A stretch of DNA of 37,742 nucleotides, from positions 1 through 37,742 of the forward strand of contig CAMEQB010000005.1 of assembly GCA_945932505.1 (NCBI GenBank). The letters are read 5' to 3'. The notes beneath the pieces are model-generated. The model was not told the origin of the DNA. It saw only the letters and a list, made by a program, of their open reading frames with translations, and made no database searches. This stretch comes from an uncultured Spirochaetales bacterium. Lineage in GTDB: Bacteria; Spirochaetota; Spirochaetia; Sphaerochaetales; Sphaerochaetaceae. Shown here one piece after another: positions 267 through 35,498 of this stretch (its first letter is position 1; every line of letters begins with the position of its first letter). Position numbers and translations under genes: made by a program.

Positions 267-1949
267 TTATTTTGTATAATCTACATGCAAGAGTTGATGC
301 TCGCGCCCCTTTAGGAGTCTATCATAGCAGGCTTTTACAGCAGGGTTGTCTTCAGAGTGTCTCAGAGAGAGAAGGCTGTCTGTCTCATAGAGGCCTTTTC
401 CTCTCTTCTGTCTCACTTCTGAGTGTACAAATGGCTGACCACCACCAGCAACACATCCGCCTGGACATGCCATGACTTCGATGATGTCGAAGTGTTCGCC
501 GTTCTCTACTCGTTTCAAGACTTTCTCGGCATTCATCAGTCCGCTGACAACTGCGATTTTCACTACAGTGTCATCGTTCCCTATTTCAAACTCTTTGATG
601 CCTTCGTTTCCTCTTACACCAATCTGAGAGATCTTAGACACTGTACCTCTGCTCTTCTCTTCCACAACATTTCTAAGTACAGCTTCAGTTACACCACCGG
701 TGACTCCGAAGATTACACCAGCGCCGCTCTTTCTGTCATATGGAGCGTCAACAGGTTCTGGATCCAAATCTGCAAGAAGGATACCAGCTTCTCTGAGCAT
801 ATGAGTAAACTCTTCAGAAGTGATGACTGCATCAACATTAGGGATGCCATTCTTCTTAAACTCATCTCTCTCAGCTTCGAACTTCTTTGCTGTACAAGGC
901 ATGATTGCAACATGGAAAAGTTCCTTACCCTTCTCTTTTCTCTCTTCCTTAATGATGGATGCGAACATCTGCATAGGAGAGCGGCATGTAGAGACATTGC
1001 CCAAAAGGTTTGGATGCTTCTTTTCACAGTACTGAATCCAACCTGGACAGCATGATGTGATGATAGGAAGCTTTCCGCCATTGTTGAGTCTTTCCAAAAA
1101 TTCCTTAGATTCCTCTATTACTGTGATATCTGCACTAAAAGAAGTATCGTAGACTTCGTCAAAGCCCATTTTTCTGAGAGCGGCAAATATCTTGCCGTCT
1201 ACATTCAAGCCTTCCTTTACACCTTCCATATTTCCCATTGCAACTCTTACAGCAGGAGCTACCTGAACAACAGTCTTTACGTTTGGATCTGCTATTGCAT
1301 TCCATACACGGGCAATATCGCTCTTAGGCATGATTGCTCCTGTTGGACAAGCCACTGCACACTGGCCGCAGCCTACGCAAGGAGTCTCAGAAAGGGGCTT
1401 GCCGAAGGCCGTAGAGATCACCATCTTGGAACCTCTATAAGCAAAGTCTATTGCTCCAACATTCTGTACTTCATGACAAGTTCTTACACAGTCGCCGCAA
1501 AGGATACACTTACCACTGTCGAATGTGATACAGGAACTGGCGTTGGTCACTCTGTTGTCATCACTTCTGTTAGGGAATCTTACACCTTCGATATTAAATC
1601 TCACTGCAAGATCCTGAAGCTTACAAGCCTTGTTGTTTACACATGTAGTACAGTCTCTACAGTGGTTTGCAAGTAATAGTTCAAGAATGTTCTTTCTGTA
1701 TCTTCTGAGTCTGGCTGTGTTTGTCTTGATCTTTAGTCCAGCTTTTGGGGGTGTGGAGCAGGCTGTATATAAGTTGCCCTTCTCGTCCTCAACCATACAC
1801 ATTCTGCAGGCTCCATAGATAGAGAGGTCAGTGTGATAACAGAAGGTAGGGAGTTTGACACCTGTCTTTCTAATAAGCTGAAGCATATTCTTCTCGCCAT
1901 TGATTACTACCGGGATATCATCCACATACATAAATTCAGTTTTGACCAT
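267..1949 (-). CDS. hydA: [FeFe]-hydrogenase catalytic subunit HydA
   Basis: Catalytic subunit of a multimeric cytoplasmic [FeFe]-hydrogenase that reduces protons to H2. Residues about 8-80 form a NuoG-like [2Fe-2S] domain (C37, C48, C51, C64). A His-Cys3 [4Fe-4S] site follows (H96, C100, C103, C109), then two [4Fe-4S] sites (C148/151/154/158 and C191/194/197/201). The H-cluster domain has all three signatures: TSCCPGW (298-304), MPCTAKK (350-356) and the C495/C499 motif MACPGGC. At 560 residues it lacks the extra C-terminal [2Fe-2S] domain of the Thermotoga HydA. ATG follows the hydB stop by one base, with AAGGAGG inside the hydB end. With HydB and HydC it matches the NADH/ferredoxin bifurcating type. 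Maturases HydEFG are not in the window. Confidence 0.96.
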   Translation of the reverse strand: MVKTEFMYVDDIPVVINGEKNMLQLIRKTGVKLPTFCYHTDLSIYGACRMCMVEDEKGNLYTACSTPPKAGLKIKTNTARLRRYRKNILELLLANHCRDCTTCVNNKACKLQDLAVRFNIEGVRFPNRSDDNRVTNASSCITFDSGKCILCGDCVRTCHEVQNVGAIDFAYRGSKMVISTAFGKPLSETPCVGCGQCAVACPTGAIMPKSDIARVWNAIADPNVKTVVQVAPAVRVAMGNMEGVKEGLNVDGKIFAALRKMGFDEVYDTSFSADITVIEESKEFLERLNNGGKLPIITSCCPGWIQYCEKKHPNLLGNVSTCRSPMQMFASIIKEERKEKGKELFHVAIMPCTAKKFEAERDEFKKNGIPNVDAVITSEEFTHMLREAGILLADLDPEPVDAPYDRKSGAGVIFGVTGGVTEAVLRNVVEEKSRGTVSKISQIGVRGNEGIKEFEIGNDDTVVKIAVVSGLMNAEKVLKRVENGEHFDIIEVMACPGGCVAGGGQPFVHSEVRQKRGKGLYETDSLLSLRHSEDNPAVKACYDRLLKGREHQLLHVDYTK

Positions 1950-1950
1950 C

Positions 1951-3834
1951 TTATGCCTCCTTCACTGCACCGAACTTACAGGTTGAAATACAAGATCCGC
2001 AGCGTATACACTTCTCCAGATCAATATGGAACGGCTCTTTGATTTTGCCTGAGATTGCATTGACAGGACACTTTCTAGAACAAGCTGAACATCCTTTACA
2101 AGTAAGAGGATCGATATAGATTCTCTTTAGCTTCTGACACTGTCCTGCTGGGCAGCGTTTATCGCGGATATGGGCCTCATATTCGCTTCTGAAGTTCTTT
2201 ATTGTGCTGACAACAGGGTTTGGTGCCGATTTTCCAAGGCCACAGAGAGCTGTATGGGAAATAGTATCGGAGAGCTCCTCCAAGAGTTCGATATCTCCCT
2301 CCTGTCCGTTTCCTGCAACTATTCTCTCCAATATCTCCAGCATTCTCTTTGTGCCTTCTCTACATGGGACACACTTTCCACAGGATTCGTTCTGAGTAAA
2401 GTGCATGAAGAATCTTGCAACTTCAACCATACATGTGTGGCTATCCATGACAACAAGACCACCAGAACCTATCATAGCCCCGATACTTTTAAGGTTGTCG
2501 AAGTCGAGAGGAAGGTCCAAATGCTCTTTTGTAAGACAAGCACCGCTTGGTCCTCCAATCTGTACAGCCTTAAACTCGCCGTCCCCTCTCATACCTCCAC
2601 CGATATCGAAGATAATCTTTCTCAGTGTAGTACCCATTGGAACTTCAATAAGACCAGTGTTTGTAATATTTCCTGTGAGGGCAAAGGCCTTTGTTCCAGG
2701 GCTATTGGCAGTTCCAATAGAAAGGTACCAGTCTGCACCCTTTCCGATTATCTGGGAAACAGTTGCAAAAGTCTCAACGTTGTTAAGAACAGTAGGAGAG
2801 TCAAAGAGACCATGCTCAGTAGTGCGAGGTGGCTTGACGCGAGGGAAGCCTCTCTTACCTTCGATGCTGGCAGTAAGGGCGGAACCTTCTCCGCATACAA
2901 AAGCTCCAGCTCCCTTTGCAATATGTATTCTAAATGACTTGCCGGAACCCAGGATATCATCACCAAGGATTCCTATTCTCTCGGCCTCAATGATAGCTTT
3001 CTGTAATCTCTTTACAGCCAATGGATACTCGGCTCTTACATAGATATATCCTTCAGTAGCTCCTACAGCAATTCCTGCGATAATCATACCTTCAAGCATT
3101 CTATGGGGGTCGCCTTCCATGATGGAACGGTCCATGAATGCACCTGGGTCGCCTTCGTCACCGTTGCAGACAACGTACTTCTGATCACCCTTTGCTCTTC
3201 TTACCTGCTCCCATTTCTTTCCTGTAGGGAATCCTCCGCCTCCGCGTCCTCTAAGGATAGACTTCTTTATCTCTTCGATAATTTCTTCTTCCTTCATGTC
3301 AAAGAGAGCTTTTTCAAGGGATGCATATCCGCCGATTGCAATATATTCCTCGATACTGTCTGCATCTATTCTTCCACAATGCTCCAAGACGACTCTGTTC
3401 TGCTGCTTATAGAATGGAATCTCTTCCTGCTTTTTATAGAGGACACCTGCTGCAGAATATCCAAGTCTATCGATGTATTCACCTTCAAGCACGGTCTTCT
3501 CAAGAATCTCTTTGCAGTCATCGACTTTGACCTTTGTATAAAGCCAACCCTGTGGTTCTATTCTTACAAGAGGACCCATTTCACAGAAGCCATGGCATCC
3601 GCTCTTTTTTAGTCCTACTTCTTCTCCATGAGGCTCATGCTCAAGAGTGACAGCTACATTGATGCCATTCTTTTCCATGAGCTTTTTTAATGTGTCATAG
3701 ATGTTCAATGAGCCGCCTGCTACGCATCCCGTTCCCCCACAGACGATTATCTTTCTTGTCTGGTTGTCATATGCGTTTTTCCAAAGTGCTCTTGCTTCAT
3801 CAAGGGAGGCCCTTGTCTGGAATTTATCACTCAT
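1951..3834 (-). CDS. hydB: Hydrogenase flavin subunit HydB (NuoF-like)
   Basis: NADH- and FMN-binding subunit of the bifurcating hydrogenase. An N-terminal thioredoxin-like [2Fe-2S] domain carries C32, C37, C80 and C84. The NuoF core follows, with the glycine-rich RGRGGGGFPTG (about 196-206), the FMN/NADH motifs NGDEGDPGAF and GAGAFVCGEGSAL, and the cluster motif ESCGKCVPC near 483. A C-terminal 2[4Fe-4S] ferredoxin module (CKGCSACSRKCP and CIRCGSCISTCK) occupies the last 50 residues. At 627 residues the length is typical for HydB. The start codon overlaps the hydC stop by 4 nt (ATGA) after AGGAGG, so the subunits are probably coupled in translation. Confidence 0.96.
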   Translation of the reverse strand: MSDKFQTRASLDEARALWKNAYDNQTRKIIVCGGTGCVAGGSLNIYDTLKKLMEKNGINVAVTLEHEPHGEEVGLKKSGCHGFCEMGPLVRIEPQGWLYTKVKVDDCKEILEKTVLEGEYIDRLGYSAAGVLYKKQEEIPFYKQQNRVVLEHCGRIDADSIEEYIAIGGYASLEKALFDMKEEEIIEEIKKSILRGRGGGGFPTGKKWEQVRRAKGDQKYVVCNGDEGDPGAFMDRSIMEGDPHRMLEGMIIAGIAVGATEGYIYVRAEYPLAVKRLQKAIIEAERIGILGDDILGSGKSFRIHIAKGAGAFVCGEGSALTASIEGKRGFPRVKPPRTTEHGLFDSPTVLNNVETFATVSQIIGKGADWYLSIGTANSPGTKAFALTGNITNTGLIEVPMGTTLRKIIFDIGGGMRGDGEFKAVQIGGPSGACLTKEHLDLPLDFDNLKSIGAMIGSGGLVVMDSHTCMVEVARFFMHFTQNESCGKCVPCREGTKRMLEILERIVAGNGQEGDIELLEELSDTISHTALCGLGKSAPNPVVSTIKNFRSEYEAHIRDKRCPAGQCQKLKRIYIDPLTCKGCSACSRKCPVNAISGKIKEPFHIDLEKCIRCGSCISTCKFGAVKEA

Positions 3835-28831: not shown

Positions 28832-30169
28832 TTAATATCCCTGCTGGCACATTGCATCTGCAACTTTCTTGAAGCCTGCAATATTTGCACCTTTGACGTA
28901 ATCAATGTAGCCGTCAGCGCATCTTCCTTCCTTGACACATGCATTATGGATGTTCTTCATAATGCCATGGAGTTTCTGATCAACCTCTTCGCTTGACCAG
29001 TTATAATGCTGAGCATTCTGGCTCATTTCTAAGCCTGATACAGCGACTCCACCTGCGTTTGCAGCTTTTCCAGGAGCGAACGGGATTCTAGCCTTCTGGA
29101 ATGCTTCTATAGCTTCTGGGCAGCATCCCATGTTGCTTGTCTCCACCACATACTTGACGCCGTTTTTAATAAGCATCTCAGCGTCTTCCCCTGTCAATTC
29201 ATTCTGGAGGGCACATGGGAATGCCATATCAACCTTTACTTCCCAAGGCTTTCTACCTTTGACAAATTTGGCACCGAATCTCTCTGCATATGGTTCAACG
29301 ATATCGTTGTTGGATGCTCTGAGTTCCAGCATATAAGCTATCTTCTCAGGAGTGTTGATTCCTTCTTCGTCGAGAACATATCCGTCTGGTCCGCTGATAG
29401 TAACAACCTTTGCACCAAGCTGAGAAGCCTTTGTAACGGCACCCCATGCTACGTTGCCGAAGCCAGAGATTGCAATTCTCTTTCCCTCAAAAGAGTCACC
29501 ATGCTCTTTGAGCATCTCGGAAGCGAAGTACATTGTTCCGAAGCCTGTAGCTTCAGGGCGAACAAGAGATCCACCCCATCCCCAGCCTTTTCCTGTAAGG
29601 ACACCGGTATTTTCATCTCTGATCTTCTTATATTGACCATAGAGATATCCAATTTCTCTTCCGCCGACACCCAGGTCTCCTGCTGGAACGTCTGTGTCAG
29701 GACCGATATACTTCTGAAGTTCAGTCATGAATGCACGGCAGAATCTCATGATCTCCTGGTCGCTCTTTCCCTTTGGAGAGAAGTCTGAACCACCCTTACC
29801 GCCACCCATAGGGAGAGTTGTGAGAGCATTCTTGAAGATCTGCTCGAAGCCCAAGAACTTCAGAGTTCCGAGAGTAACGTTAGCATGGAATCTAAGTCCA
29901 CCTTTATATGGGCCCAAAGCATTGTTGTATTGGACACGATAACCTCTATTTACCTGTAACTCATGGTTATCGTCTTCCCACTCTACCTTGAATGTGATGA
30001 TTCTATCTGGCTCGATAATGCGGTCGAGGATCTTGTTTTTAAGATAAAGAGGGTTGGAATTGACTGTATCAATAACAGAGGCAACTACTTCTCTTGCTGC
30101 CTGAATGAATTCCGGCTGTGCAGGGTTTTTTCTTTCTACTTCAGCCATGAACGAATCGAGATCGTACAT
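28832..30169 (-). CDS. gdhA: Glutamate dehydrogenase GdhA
   Basis: Interconverts 2-oxoglutarate plus ammonia and glutamate; hexameric cytosolic enzyme. 445 residues, matching the short NADP-type family. Key features are LPMGGGKGGSDF (substrate Lys), PAGDLGVGGREIGYLYG and the Rossmann motif SGFGNVAWG. An upstream ATG at 30190 adds seven residues, but AAAAGGAG lies 4-5 nt before the ATG at 30169, which is preferred. Coenzyme choice is inferred from length and cannot be proven here. It stands alone with a strong terminator, divergent from the phosphatase gene. Confidence 0.95.
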   Translation of the reverse strand: MYDLDSFMAEVERKNPAQPEFIQAAREVVASVIDTVNSNPLYLKNKILDRIIEPDRIITFKVEWEDDNHELQVNRGYRVQYNNALGPYKGGLRFHANVTLGTLKFLGFEQIFKNALTTLPMGGGKGGSDFSPKGKSDQEIMRFCRAFMTELQKYIGPDTDVPAGDLGVGGREIGYLYGQYKKIRDENTGVLTGKGWGWGGSLVRPEATGFGTMYFASEMLKEHGDSFEGKRIAISGFGNVAWGAVTKASQLGAKVVTISGPDGYVLDEEGINTPEKIAYMLELRASNNDIVEPYAERFGAKFVKGRKPWEVKVDMAFPCALQNELTGEDAEMLIKNGVKYVVETSNMGCCPEAIEAFQKARIPFAPGKAANAGGVAVSGLEMSQNAQHYNWSSEEVDQKLHGIMKNIHNACVKEGRCADGYIDYVKGANIAGFKKVADAMCQQGY

Positions 30170-30437
30170 ATTTTCTCCTTTTGTGCCCATAGGTTAAATC
30201 GGGTTTTAATATACGTCAATCTTTATTTTTACGTTGATATTTTTTATTTTTTTGATGGTTTCATTACAGTTTTTATAAAATATTGAGTAAATCATAAAGT
30301 TTTATAAAACATGTATTTACAATAACATAATTCTTATATCTTTTTATAATACAAAGAATTATCTTTTTATTAACTCGGTTAACAAAATAATGCATATATA
30401 CACTGAAAATATAGTAAAATACTAAAAAAGAGGTGTT
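30170..30437. promoter_or_regulatory. Divergent AT-rich region, gdhA / phosphatase
   Basis: No gene. For gdhA, a TATATT box (30213-30208, minus) lies 38 nt before its ATG, with a poor -35. For the plus strand, a TAAAAT box lies near 30415 with no good -35. An inverted repeat TTAAC-TCG-GTTAA sits at 30370-30382. Promoter assignments are tentative. Confidence 0.3.
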
Positions 30438-31190
30438 ATGTCCGAAACAGAAACCAGAAGCAGAAGAGTAATAGACTTTCATAGTCATGTACTTCCAAAT
30501 ATAGATGACGGTTCTTCATCTCTCGAGATGAGTCGGGAGATAATGGAGGAAACCAGAAGGCAGAAAGTGAAGAAGATGGTGGCCACTCCCCACTTCTATC
30601 CAGATAGGATGTCGCTGGACATTTTCCTTTCAAAAAGAGAAAAGGCAGCCAAAGCTCTTTTGAGTGTCCATGACATAGATACGTGCCCATCTATATTCCT
30701 TGGAGCGGAAATAGCATATTACGAAGGAATTGGAGATAGTCCCTTCTTAGGTGATTTGACTATTGTAGGAACGAACTCCCTGATGATAGAAATGCCTTTT
30801 CATAAATGGAGCGGCAAAGAAATATCGGAGATATTAAGTATATCTCTCTGTTCTCCTTTCTCTGTCATTCTCGCCCATATAGAAAGATACCTTAATTGGC
30901 AGGATCCTGATACCATAAACAGGCTACTGGATGCAGGAGTATTTATCCAATCGAATGCTGAATTCTTTATAGAAAAAGAGACGAGGAACAAAGCTCTATC
31001 AATGTTGAAAGATGCACAAATACACATCCTTGGTTCTGACACACATAACACTGACACAAGGCCTCAAAGGATAGGAGAAGCAAAAGCAATAATCAAAGAT
31101 AGCTTGGGAGAAGGTGTAATAGAAAATATGCTTTATCACTCAAAGACTCTTTTGGATGGTGCACTATCCATAGACCAAATGGGGTTTTGA
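30438..31190 (+). CDS. CpsB/YwqE-type tyrosine-protein phosphatase (PHP)
   Basis: A 250-residue PHP-fold metal-dependent phosphatase of the CpsB/Wzb-analogue family, which removes phosphate from tyrosine-autokinases that steer capsule or exopolysaccharide export. Motifs: DFHSHVLPNIDDGS (H15, H17), ATPHFYP, GAEIAYYEG, LAHIERY, QSNAEFF and LGSDTHN, all metal or substrate contacts of the family. SD AGAGGTG precedes ATG. No tyrosine kinase or polysaccharide gene is in the window, so the target is unknown. It heads a plus-strand run with the membrane peptide and the receiver-ATP-grasp protein. Confidence 0.88.
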   Translation: MSETETRSRRVIDFHSHVLPNIDDGSSSLEMSREIMEETRRQKVKKMVATPHFYPDRMSLDIFLSKREKAAKALLSVHDIDTCPSIFLGAEIAYYEGIGDSPFLGDLTIVGTNSLMIEMPFHKWSGKEISEILSISLCSPFSVILAHIERYLNWQDPDTINRLLDAGVFIQSNAEFFIEKETRNKALSMLKDAQIHILGSDTHNTDTRPQRIGEAKAIIKDSLGEGVIENMLYHSKTLLDGALSIDQMGF

Positions 31191-31402: not shown

Positions 31403-34327
31403 ATGCATTATCAACTGGACGAAACTTGGATTCCTTTCTCTTCTTTGATGTTGAAGCATGTATATAACGTGCTTCTCATCTGCTCTGACTACGACCGATT
31501 CATGCTTGAAGAAGACGGAAGAGTGGAAGAAGAGCTATATAAAGAATATACAGCCTTGGGGCTCTCAAACCCACCTAAAATTACACATACATCAAGTGAA
31601 GACGAAGCTTTAGAGTACCTGAAGAATGGTAAGTTTGATCTCGTAATATCTATGCTGGAGCTGGGATCAGGGAGAGTTGAAGCCTTGGCTGAAGCTGTGA
31701 AGAAATATGATTCATCTCTTCCTTTTATAGTCCTCTCCCCTTCTCCTGACCATAGGAGAGTAAAGGAACTAAAGGGTGAAAATTGTCCTTACATCGATTA
31801 CATGTTCTATTGGATGGGAGACCCGTCTGTATTCCTTGCAATGATAAAGCTTATTGAGGATGCCATAAATGTAGACCATGACACTGAGGAAGCTGACGTA
31901 GAAGTCATTCTCTTTGTAGAAGACTCGGTCAAGTTCATATCCTCTTATCTTCCCCAGCTCTATATGCTTTTGATCCAGCAAAACAGAGCCTCTATTCTCG
32001 AAGCCCTCAACGAGTGGGGAATGAAGCTGAGAATGAGGGGAAGACCAAAAATCATCCTCGCTAGAAACTATAATGAAGCTTGGGCTCTCTACAATAAATA
32101 CAGAGACAATATCCTGGGAGTAATAACTGACCTCTCATTTCCTTCCCCTTACGGAGACAAAGAGGGAGGGAAAGAGCTGGGAAAGGCAATTAAGAAAGAT
32201 AACCCGGAAATCCCAGTGCTCTTGCAGTCTACAGATGAAAACGCAGAAATAATCGCCAAAGAAATAGGTGCAGACTTTATTTGGAAACTTTCTCCAGATA
32301 GATATCATTTCTTAGAGTCATATTTTAAAACAAAATATGACTTCGGAGCTTTTAATTTTATAGACCCAGCTACAGGGGAGACTATAGCCACAGCCTCTAC
32401 AATGAAGGAGCTGCAGGATAAGATGATGGAGGTTCCTATCTCATCCTTTGCCTACCATGTAAGAAAGAATGATCTCTCCAGATGGCTTAGAGCCCAATCT
32501 CTCTATCATCTTGCTTCTATTTTAAAGCCCATAACTATGAAGAGCGATGGAAGCGACGCAGAGAAGACAAGAGAGCTTATATACACAACTATAAAAAGCT
32601 ACAGAAAAGAAAGGACAAGAGGCTCTATAGCTGAATTCAACAGAAAGAGTTATGACGAGACCTTCCTTTTTACCAGAATCGGTAAAGGTTCCTTGGGAGG
32701 AAAAGGTAGAGGACTGGCATTCATTGCTATGGAGATGAAGGCTGATGGAATAGGCAAGAGATATAAAGATGTCTACGTCTCTATTCCTCGCACTGTTGTA
32801 ATATCTACAGAGCTTTTCGATAGATTCCTCGCCCTCAACGACTTCTGGCCAGGAGATTTTGTAGATAAGAAAGACGATGAAATACTCTCTATTTTTCTTA
32901 GTGCAAAGCTGCCCGAGGATCTTGAATTAGACTTAAAGAGAATCGTCGAAGTAATAAAAGTCCCAATTTCTGTAAGATCCTCTTCTCTTCTTGAGGACAG
33001 CCACTTCCAACCCTTTGCCGGAGTCTATCAGACATCCATGATTCCAAATAAGGGAAGCGACGAGAAGAGGCTTGAAGACTTGGAGAACGCTGTAAAGACA
33101 GTGTGGGCTTCAACGTACTTTGAGGGAGCGAGAGAGTATCTGAAGCGTACAGGCCATAGCACTGAAGAAGAGAAAATGGCTGTAATAATCCAGCAGATTA
33201 CTGGAAGCGACCATGACGGATTGTGGTTTCCAAATATATCAGGAGTAGCAAGAAGTCTTGATTATTATCCATCGGGAAACAGAAAAGCGGAGGATGGACT
33301 GGGAATGCTTGCCTTCGGTATGGGAAAAACTATTGTGGATGAGGGCGCAGCCTTCAGATTCTGCCCAGCAAAGCCTCAGATTCCTGTAACATCCCTTACA
33401 GGTCGCGGTTCTTCCCAGCGCTACTTTTATGCCCTGGACACCAATAAGCCTTTCTCTCCTCTCTGTGATATAGACAACCTCGTCCAGCTTCCTCTCTCAA
33501 AGGTATCTAAATATCCGAGAGCCACTATGGGAATAATGTCTGTAATGAGAAGCGACGGATTTGTCTCAGAAAACCCATATGACGAAGGCTTCAGAAGTCT
33601 TACATTCAACGGCGTCGTAAAGTATGAGATGTTGCCTCTGGCGAGAATTATCGACAACATGTTGAAGCTGGGAACCAGAACTATGGCGGAACCTGTGGAG
33701 ATTGAGTTTGCTGTAAACACAGAGCATAGCGGTATGCCTGACTTCTCTATCCTACAAATCAGGCCTATATCATCTACAGACAGATTCGAAAACATCCAAG
33801 TCACAGACGAAGAACTTAAGAGTGCTCTGGTCTCTTCTGAGAAAGTTATGGGGAACGGCAAAGTCAGCGGAGTGAGAGATATAGTCTCTATACTTCCTGA
33901 GAAATTTAATAGAAGCGAGATGACAGAGATGGCTGAGGAGCTTGAAAGGATAAACAAGCGCTTAGAAGAGCCATATGTCCTTATTGCAGCAGGAAGGCTG
34001 GGATCAAGTGACAAGTGGCTTGGCATTCCTTGTTCATGGCCCCAGATTTCAAAGGCGAGAGTAATTGTAGAGACGGGACTTGAGGAGTTACAAGCAGAAC
34101 CAAGCGAGGGTTCCCACTTCTTCCAGAACGTAACAAGTCTAGGTTGCCTGTACCTTACCAACAACCCTATAGACGGAGAAGGCAGGGTCGACTACGAGGG
34201 AATAAAGAAACTTCATCTTGTTGAAGAGACTAAGCACTTTATCCATGTAAGAAGCGAAAAAGAGCTTTTGATCAAAGCAGATGGAAGCGAAGGAAAAGCT
34301 GTAGTAATGGAGAAGAATAATGACTGA
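31403..34327 (+). CDS. Receiver-receiver-ATP-grasp (PEP-synthase N-domain) protein
   Basis: A 974-residue protein. Residues about 20-155 form a receiver-like fold in which the phospho-acceptor is M84 instead of Asp. Residues about 165-315 are a second receiver with E173/D174, D243, S276/T277 and K295 all in place. After a linker (SSFAYHV, WLRAQ), residues about 420-770 match the nucleotide-binding domain of PEP synthase/PPDK: GSLGGKGRGLA, VRSSSLLED, FAGVYQT and ILQIRPIS. The phosphohistidine and PEP/pyruvate domains are absent. The C-terminal part has SSDKWLGIPCSW and EPSEGSHFFQN, seen in related orphan proteins. It is probably not a PEP synthase. It may be a receiver-controlled phosphotransferase of unknown target. 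Coupled to the 59-residue gene. Confidence 0.85.
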   Translation: MHYQLDETWIPFSSLMLKHVYNVLLICSDYDRFMLEEDGRVEEELYKEYTALGLSNPPKITHTSSEDEALEYLKNGKFDLVISMLELGSGRVEALAEAVKKYDSSLPFIVLSPSPDHRRVKELKGENCPYIDYMFYWMGDPSVFLAMIKLIEDAINVDHDTEEADVEVILFVEDSVKFISSYLPQLYMLLIQQNRASILEALNEWGMKLRMRGRPKIILARNYNEAWALYNKYRDNILGVITDLSFPSPYGDKEGGKELGKAIKKDNPEIPVLLQSTDENAEIIAKEIGADFIWKLSPDRYHFLESYFKTKYDFGAFNFIDPATGETIATASTMKELQDKMMEVPISSFAYHVRKNDLSRWLRAQSLYHLASILKPITMKSDGSDAEKTRELIYTTIKSYRKERTRGSIAEFNRKSYDETFLFTRIGKGSLGGKGRGLAFIAMEMKADGIGKRYKDVYVSIPRTVVISTELFDRFLALNDFWPGDFVDKKDDEILSIFLSAKLPEDLELDLKRIVEVIKVPISVRSSSLLEDSHFQPFAGVYQTSMIPNKGSDEKRLEDLENAVKTVWASTYFEGAREYLKRTGHSTEEEKMAVIIQQITGSDHDGLWFPNISGVARSLDYYPSGNRKAEDGLGMLAFGMGKTIVDEGAAFRFCPAKPQIPVTSLTGRGSSQRYFYALDTNKPFSPLCDIDNLVQLPLSKVSKYPRATMGIMSVMRSDGFVSENPYDEGFRSLTFNGVVKYEMLPLARIIDNMLKLGTRTMAEPVEIEFAVNTEHSGMPDFSILQIRPISSTDRFENIQVTDEELKSALVSSEKVMGNGKVSGVRDIVSILPEKFNRSEMTEMAEELERINKRLEEPYVLIAAGRLGSSDKWLGIPCSWPQISKARVIVETGLEELQAEPSEGSHFFQNVTSLGCLYLTNNPIDGEGRVDYEGIKKLHLVEETKHFIHVRSEKELLIKADGSEGKAVVMEKNND

Positions 34328-35498
34328 ATACTATACACCTACCAGAGTTCTATTCGGGAAAGGAGCTGAAACCAAACTAGGAGAGACTCTAAAGAAAGAT
34401 GGATATAAGAGGGCGCTGTTGCACTATGGAGGAAAGAGTGCAGTACAGTCTGGTCTCTTGGATAGAATCGAAGCAGACCTAAATGAAAACGGAATCGATG
34501 TAATAAAGGTAGGAGGAGTAGTACCAAACCCAAGAGTAACAAAGGTAAGAGAAGCCATAGAAAAAGCAAAAGAACACAAATCCGAGATAATAATAGCTCT
34601 CGGAGGAGGTAGTGTAATCGATAGCGCTAAAGCTATTGCTTACGGCTTATTTAATCATGATGGTGATATTTGGGACTATTATTTGGGAGAAAGAAAAGTA
34701 AAAGGAGCTTTCCCTTTGGCTGTCATTCTCACACTCTCTGCCACCGGTAGCGAGATGAGCGCTTCAAGCGTCATATCAAACGACGAAGGACCAGGATATA
34801 AGCGTGGACTCAACTCTGAATGGGGAAGACCTAAGTACGCTTTCCTTAACCCTGAGCTTACCTATTCTGTTTCCCGTTATCAGACAGCAAGTGGATCAGC
34901 AGACATAATGATGCATACTTTAGAGCGTTTCTTTCATAGTGGAAACGGCCTTATGCTGACAGATGATCTAGCAGTATCACTACTAAAAACTGTTATGATT
35001 TATACTCCAATAGCTATTTCAGACCCTTCAAACTATGAAGCAAGGGCTAACTTAATGTGGGCAGGAGCACTATCCCACAACGGTCTGATGAATATGGGTG
35101 CAGATAGCCGCGGCGACTGGGCATGCCACCAAATGGAGCATGAACTCTCTGCAAAGTTTGATGTAGCTCATGGAGCAGGACTGACTGCCATTTGGTCAAG
35201 CTGGGCTAGGTATGTATTTCCTTCTATAGAAGATAGACTATGTATCCTTGGGGAAAAGCTCTTCTCTCTAGAGGGAGAAAAAGAGAAAATTGCTAGAGAA
35301 ACGATTTATGAAATGGAGAAGTTTTTCTTATCTATCGATATGCCTATTAGAATAGATGGCCTTGGAATAGATTTGACAGAAGATGATATTTCGGATCTTT
35401 CTTATGGTGCTACATTCCACAGAAAGAGAACAATCGGAGACTCATTCAAGCTTGGAGAGAAAGAGATATCAGATATATACAGATTGGCTAGAAGCTGA
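34320..35498 (+). CDS. Iron-type alcohol dehydrogenase (butanol dehydrogenase/YqhD group)
   Basis: NAD(P)H-dependent reduction of aldehydes to alcohols, cytosolic, 392 residues. The nucleotide motif is GGGSVIDSAK (95-104). Metal ligands are D195, H199, H270 and H284 (SADIMMHTLE, CHQMEHELSA, DVAHGAGL), with the YqhD/BdhA spacing. GGAG lies 7 nt before ATG, and the start overlaps the previous gene by 8 nt. Substrate range cannot be told from sequence. It probably removes reducing equivalents in fermentation. Confidence 0.93.
   Translation: MTEYYTPTRVLFGKGAETKLGETLKKDGYKRALLHYGGKSAVQSGLLDRIEADLNENGIDVIKVGGVVPNPRVTKVREAIEKAKEHKSEIIIALGGGSVIDSAKAIAYGLFNHDGDIWDYYLGERKVKGAFPLAVILTLSATGSEMSASSVISNDEGPGYKRGLNSEWGRPKYAFLNPELTYSVSRYQTASGSADIMMHTLERFFHSGNGLMLTDDLAVSLLKTVMIYTPIAISDPSNYEARANLMWAGALSHNGLMNMGADSRGDWACHQMEHELSAKFDVAHGAGLTAIWSSWARYVFPSIEDRLCILGEKLFSLEGEKEKIARETIYEMEKFFLSIDMPIRIDGLGIDLTEDDISDLSYGATFHRKRTIGDSFKLGEKEISDIYRLARS

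Follow-up and report, generated by a model that had tools for sequence, protein, structure and literature searches.

A two-receiver ATP-grasp protein with a putative histidine swivel domain is encoded beside glutamate dehydrogenase in several phyla

Introduction

VadK (Rv1127c) of Mycobacterium tuberculosis is a PPDK cut down to an ATP-grasp domain and a His domain. It autophosphorylates on histidine, has methylcitrate synthase and dehydratase as interaction partners, and alters flux while leaving transcription of these methylcitrate-cycle enzymes as it was (PMC12636432, preprint 2025). Related machinery is arranged differently elsewhere. Rifampin phosphotransferase (RPH; 5hv1, 5fbu) has a drug-binding domain between its ATP-grasp and swivel domains, and the split dikinase HpeHI (9goj; PMC12167813) divides its function between proteins, with the swivel domain placed with the substrate-binding subunit. 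Among response regulators, PorX- and PleD-type proteins combine tandem receivers with a PorX or GGDEF output domain.

Here we describe a protein, which we call the dikinase, that brings elements of these systems together. It has the tandem-receiver layout of PorX/PleD-type regulators, but its output is a dikinase core instead of a PorX or GGDEF domain. Like VadK, it has an ATP-grasp domain and a His domain (the latter provisional) and no pyruvate/PEP barrel. VadK, however, is a PPDK derivative whose His domain is recognizable as that of PPDK, and no receivers are reported for it; the sequences of the dikinase family have diverged much further, and receivers or other modules occupy their N termini. 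The partners of VadK are methylcitrate-cycle enzymes; dikinase genes are instead linked to genes for glutamate dehydrogenase (GDH). By analogy, the best reading of the dikinase is that it works like the truncated PPDK VadK.

Results

A conserved gene for a probable two-receiver dikinase

The dikinase gene occupies positions 31403..34327 (+ strand) of the window, the 37,742-nucleotide stretch of uncultured Spirochaetales DNA analyzed here, and encodes a 974-residue protein. Its assignment draws on open-reading-frame calls, on conservation in the genus and in related phyla, and on an AlphaFold2 model. Whole-genome searches found an orthologue with 58-97% identity in all 35/35 same-genus relatives searched and relatives with ~26-57% identity spread over numerous further families within the phylum; named public genomes that carry the gene include Spirochaetales, Bacteroidota, Delongbacteria, and records labelled Chlorobiota. 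Presence throughout the genus set and in other phyla thus marks a conserved gene and no chance frame. The full-length model, built with 49 sequences, had a pLDDT of 84.6 and a pTM of 0.74. Scans for promoters, terminators, and repeats around the gene gave results at chance level or were uninformative. Tandem pairs of paralogous dikinases occur in many Bacteroidales (L092, L094, L096, L097, L103, L117, L131, and others), and in one Delongbacteria locus (L089) a GDH gene lies between two dikinase copies.

A pseudo-receiver precedes a complete receiver

Receiver 1 (residues ~18-158; 31454..31876, + strand) was modeled over residues 20-157 as a fold that matches the PorX and PmrA receivers with Z scores of 12-13. 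The position of the phospho-accepting aspartate is occupied by Met84 (codon 31652-31654), and this position is Met in 44/48 homologues and Asp in none, which marks the domain as a pseudo-receiver. Receiver 2 (residues ~165-315, extending to 317 in the model; 31895..32347, + strand) matches Spo0F and PorX at Z ~13 and retains every phosphorylation residue: Glu173, Asp174, Asp243, Ser276, and Lys295 are present in 49/49 aligned homologues. Of the acidic pair, Asp, Thr/Ser, and Lys that characterize a response regulator, receiver 2 thus has the full set and receiver 1 departs from it at Met84, as a sequence-only reading of this gene had proposed for both domains. That reading had also named beforehand a lack of D243 conservation as evidence against itself; the phospho-acceptor D243 (32129-32131) is invariant, also in a wider set of 26 family members. 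No cognate histidine kinase was found among the typed neighboring genes.

The ATP-grasp domain retains the catalytic residues of dikinases

A mostly helical linker (residues ~316-420; 32348..32662, + strand), helical in the model, joins the receivers to the core. It shows weak similarity to DUF5752 (PF19027), which was matched by 11/26 family members at E < 0.01, with a best value of 2.8e-5. In the literature searched, neither DUF5752 nor the combination of PPDK_N with GDH came up.

The ATP-grasp domain that follows (residues ~421-790; 32663..33772, + strand) was assigned from Pfam, VIA fold comparison, and residue counts. PPDK_N was matched over residues 430-800 with E = 8e-39, and comparison of the model placed the fold with RPH, PEP synthase, and PPDK at Z scores of 17-25. 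The best VIA match was RPH (Z 25.5), and HpeI, the ATP-grasp unit of HpeHI, was also close (Z 18.9). Lys434, Arg525, Glu768, and Gln785 are invariant in every aligned member of all three subtypes of the family, and position 787 is Arg or Lys. The titles of PDB entries for the PPDK mutants K22A and R337A point to important residues of the PPDK fold; by our mapping, which was made by motifs and not by coordinate superposition, Lys434 would correspond to Lys22 of PPDK and Arg787 to Arg337. The nucleotide domain of PEP synthase that had been recognized in the open reading frame is therefore present, with its catalytic residues invariant.

The C-terminal domain resembles a phosphohistidine swivel

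The sequence-only reading held that the protein lacks the phosphohistidine domain and that the domains carrying phosphate to pyruvate are absent. Several results indicate that only part of this description is right, and that the last domain (residues ~791-974; 33773..34324, + strand), assigned from a domain model, VIA, and His905, is probably a divergent phosphohistidine swivel.

First, the C-terminal 187 residues (788-974), modeled alone, gave a confident structure (pLDDT 89.2, pTM 0.88), and each of the first eight VIA rows for this isolated domain was a swivel-type domain or a chain aligned through one, with Z scores of 7.2-5.9. The top row was RPH residues 756-867 (Z 7.2, 112 residues). 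It was accompanied by two pyruvate kinase C-terminal domains (7.1, 6.9), which we take to be PEP-utilizer-like, a second RPH (6.6), the phosphoryl-carrier domain of PPDK (6.2), Enzyme I (6.1), and two PPDKs (5.9). Second, residues 421-971 of the full-length model align with PEP synthase (2ols, residues 8-467) and with PPDK (1dik, residues 2-511), so that the order of domains, ATP-grasp and then swivel, is the one found in those enzymes. In RPH, by contrast, the drug-binding domain intervenes, whereas the two domains of the dikinase are contiguous; and in HpeHI the swivel domain is housed with the substrate-binding subunit, whereas that of the dikinase is housed with the ATP-grasp domain. Third, the model places a strand at 885-891, a loop, a helix at 905-912, and a strand at 916-921, which matches the strand-loop-His-helix-strand arrangement of swivel domains. 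His905 (codon 34115-34117), the histidine of the SEGSHFF segment, opens the helix and stands where the catalytic histidine should be. Finally, His905 is invariant in all three aligned sets (26/26, 49/49, and 18/18 sequences), and Gly864, Arg865, Gly867, Ser901, Gly903, and Phe906 in the C-terminal motif regions are invariant as well.

Sequence comparison gave a different picture. The motif around His905 is SxG[S/T]H; the canonical swivel motif, T/SxxGGxxxH (PMC12167813), is absent there, and two residues before the histidine the dikinase has Gly where PPDK and PEP synthase have Thr. Pfam found no PF00391 match in the dikinase or in any of 26 family members, an HMM of the C-terminal region run against solved structures found no phosphohistidine domain, and profile-profile comparison in two hhalign set-ups detected no likeness to the canonical swivel domains of related genomes. 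Foldseek alone gave no significant match for the C-terminal domain; the likeness to swivel domains was revealed by VIA. Pfam likewise found no PEP/pyruvate-binding barrel (PF02896), and the protein ends with the swivel-like domain. The dikinase shares with PPDK and PEP synthase a PPDK_N ATP-grasp domain in which the catalytic residues are kept, and a swivel-like domain after it; it differs from them in lacking the barrel and the PF00391 signature and in carrying N-terminal receivers.

The missing PF00391 similarity and canonical motif, the Z scores below 8, and the Foldseek result would suit a protein in which the C-terminal domain is no phosphohistidine carrier and the ATP-grasp domain acts directly, in a ligase-like manner or by phosphorylating a protein, with His905 serving a structural or substrate-binding role, as the sequence-only reading supposed. 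We regard this as improbable. Swivel domains fill the best VIA rows, the domains follow one another as in PPDK and PEP synthase, the succession of strands and helices matches the swivel, and the invariant histidine opens the right helix. Z scores of 6-7 are indecisive alone; together with the domain order, topology, and invariant histidine, the modeled structure makes it likely that the domain is a phosphohistidine swivel. The SSDKWLGIP and EPSEGSHFFQN motifs are real and conserved, but instead of forming an uncharacterized catalytic or binding region they probably belong to a divergent His-bearing swivel domain. On this view the protein would have its phosphate carrier and lack the PEP/pyruvate barrel alone. 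A hidden swiveling domain was the outcome that the sequence-only reading had itself named as contrary to it.

Three subtypes share the core and differ at the N terminus

Members of the family share the catalytic core and His905 and differ in their N-terminal regions. Type A proteins have two receivers. Type B proteins (~860 residues) have another N-terminal module, which resembles a KaiC-type domain that lacks the Walker A motif, a lead that Pfam does not confirm. Type C proteins (~1050 residues; L042:5748-8909 on the - strand, L198, L200, L201, and L203) have yet another N terminus, and in 2/4 members tested, those of L042 and L198, Pfam also matched a C-terminal Pol-beta nucleotidyltransferase. 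The presence of a nucleotidyltransferase beside GDH calls to mind protein nucleotidylylation of a nitrogen enzyme. An HTH-cupin regulator gene lies upstream of several type B dikinases (L183:6220-7614, L193:10451-11719); its product is similar in sequence to a type B dikinase (63-72 bits), presumably to the N-terminal module of the latter. Near one type B dikinase and its GDH is an oxidoreductase pair (L183:4075-6334) like NfnAB or the glutamate-synthase small subunit, and clusters similar to this pair occur in up to nine type B loci.

Dikinase genes are linked to GDH genes

GDH links carbon to nitrogen metabolism, and in gut and rumen bacteria it is a major enzyme of ammonia assimilation. In the window, a GDH gene of the ELFV family (28832..30190, - strand; Pfam E = 3e-87), the proposed partner, lies 1.2 kb upstream of the dikinase gene and is divergent from it. 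This arrangement recurs. Clustering of neighboring genes at ~92 two-receiver loci placed GDH, checked with the GDH sequence, in 51 of them. Within 5 kb, GDH was found at 18/23 and 41/80 type A loci in two sets (12/15 and 13/26, respectively, when only loci with full flanks were counted), at 21/25 type B loci, and at 8/8 type C loci, against a chance expectation that we roughly estimate at ~1% of loci. Half of the well-flanked type A loci on genome contigs therefore have no GDH within 5 kb. Median gaps between the two genes are 42-211 bp, and orientations are divergent, co-directional, or convergent; for type C the median gap is ~42 bp and the partner belongs to a different, second GDH subfamily. 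When 130 loci were pooled, the GDH cluster was near 77, covering all three subtypes, and the next neighbor family was near 10, in one subtype.

The association extends to gene content. In the phylum, 60/61 genomes with a dikinase have an ELFV dehydrogenase when compared by hand, the exception being a genome that is 77% complete (G239). Many genomes have GDH and no dikinase, as expected if the dikinase is a dispensable regulator. Among 47 paired and 20 unpaired GDHs, no residue separated the two groups, and the comparison thus yields no candidate phosphosite in GDH. The linkage shows a functional association, not catalysis on GDH, and this conserved pairing, which the sequence-only reading had missed, is the strongest clue to the target of the dikinase.

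The gene order could have been inherited or GDH could be hitch-hiking, the real target being another protein such as the iron-containing alcohol dehydrogenase encoded immediately downstream (34320..35498, + strand; Pfam E = 1.6e-44), whose gene overlaps that of the dikinase by 8 bp. The overlapping or abutting arrangement is conserved in Spirochaetales (neighbor cluster c2, 12 loci), and GDH is not near every dikinase locus. The alcohol dehydrogenase is an operon mate of the dikinase in this lineage only, however, whereas GDH recurs across phyla, subtypes, orientations, and two GDH subfamilies, and we consider hitch-hiking very unlikely. A CpsB/CapC-type PHP phosphatase gene lies between GDH and the dikinase (30438-31190) and is no recurrent neighbor in other dikinase loci. 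Farther away, genes matched by Pfam as an [FeFe] hydrogenase large subunit and a NuoF-like subunit stand side by side (267-3834), in an arrangement like that of electron-bifurcating hydrogenases.

Proximity to GDH suits a shared pathway as well as regulation, and the nearest ATP-grasp folds, RPH and HpeI, are those of small-molecule dikinases. As in RPH or HpeHI, a small molecule such as glutamate or 2-oxoglutarate, bound in the linker domain or on a separate subunit, might then receive the phosphate from His905, and GDH would be a neighbor in glutamate and ammonia metabolism rather than a target; split dikinases of this sort are known (PMC12167813). Against this reading, the dikinase has no recognizable acceptor domain, a core-only member of 564 residues adjoining GDH in L042 has no room for one, and a constant core with N-terminal modules that vary by subtype is the pattern of a regulator. 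We judge a small-molecule dikinase to be unlikely. The core-only member beside GDH instead indicates that the phosphate acceptor is probably supplied in trans.

The Bacteroides dikinase as a candidate trans-acting factor

Baggio & Morrison (1996) reported that GDH activity in Bacteroides depends on one or more trans-acting genes lying downstream of gdhA. In our survey, the dikinase gene was present in 57/60 Bacteroides genomes and GDH in 60/60; 57/57 of the genomes bearing the dikinase also have an ELFV dehydrogenase. When both genes were on the same contig, one GDH lay within 6 kb of the dikinase in 35/40 cases, and 34 of these pairs were divergent. Six Bacteroides genomes have a second GDH, convergent with the dikinase at no more than 331 bp, which places the dikinase immediately downstream of that GDH (15-331 bp). 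Bacteroides GDH made in E. coli is said to have been inactive without a downstream DNA segment, although the gene was transcribed; the complementing segment was reportedly ~3 kb, and the dikinase gene is of that size. From these parallels we propose the dikinase as a candidate for the trans-acting factor of Bacteroides GDH.

The reported inactivity of GDH made without the downstream segment, and the co-conservation of the two genes, would also suit a factor for the assembly or activation of GDH, one that binds the enzyme and spends ATP on a conformational task without passing a phosphoryl group to it. An invariant His905 and a complete dikinase catalytic set would then have no clear reason, and GDHs from genomes without a dikinase show no distinguishing residues. 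A pure assembly or activation role seems to us an improbable alternative to phosphotransfer.

Discussion

The mechanism that we propose starts from the domain anatomy, conservation, predicted fold, and gene linkage of the dikinase. Its input section consists of the pseudo-receiver, the true receiver, and the linker; the ATP-grasp engine and the probable His-bearing swivel follow, and the chain includes no acceptor domain of its own. A histidine kinase would phosphorylate D243 and so alter the position or freedom of the C-terminal half. The ATP-grasp domain, given its invariant catalytic residues, would then phosphorylate His905, probably releasing AMP and Pi as in PEP synthase and RPH, and the swivel domain would hand the phosphate to a partner in trans. 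That partner would most likely be GDH, with its activity switched or tuned to nitrogen or carbon status; autophosphorylation, the identity of the target, and the direction of the effect are steps that we infer.

We find it marginally probable that the protein is such a receiver-gated ATP-to-His dikinase, truncated and regulated, which phosphorylates or otherwise controls GDH and finds its acceptor in trans. The general idea of a two-component output that phosphorylates a protein or small molecule, already voiced from the open reading frame, fits the data; the architecture by which phosphate is carried had been misread. A more inclusive proposal can be offered tentatively, as plausible and somewhat short of probable. 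It holds that several phyla share a previously unrecognized family of dikinases whose input modules are interchangeable (receivers, a nucleotidyltransferase, or another N-terminal module), that this family reversibly modifies GDH by an ATP-to-phosphohistidine relay, that it is the missing trans-acting regulator of Bacteroides GDH, and that it includes a receiver-gated dikinase acting on a metabolic enzyme.

With relatives beside GDH genes in several phyla, the dikinase is probably a long-missed switch for this enzyme. If so, the engine of PEP synthase would have become a regulator of a metabolic enzyme, wired to a two-component receiver, in an event apparently separate from the one that gave rise to VadK. 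The conserved dikinase partner also makes the question raised in 1996 about the trans-acting gene(s) of Bacteroides GDH directly testable.
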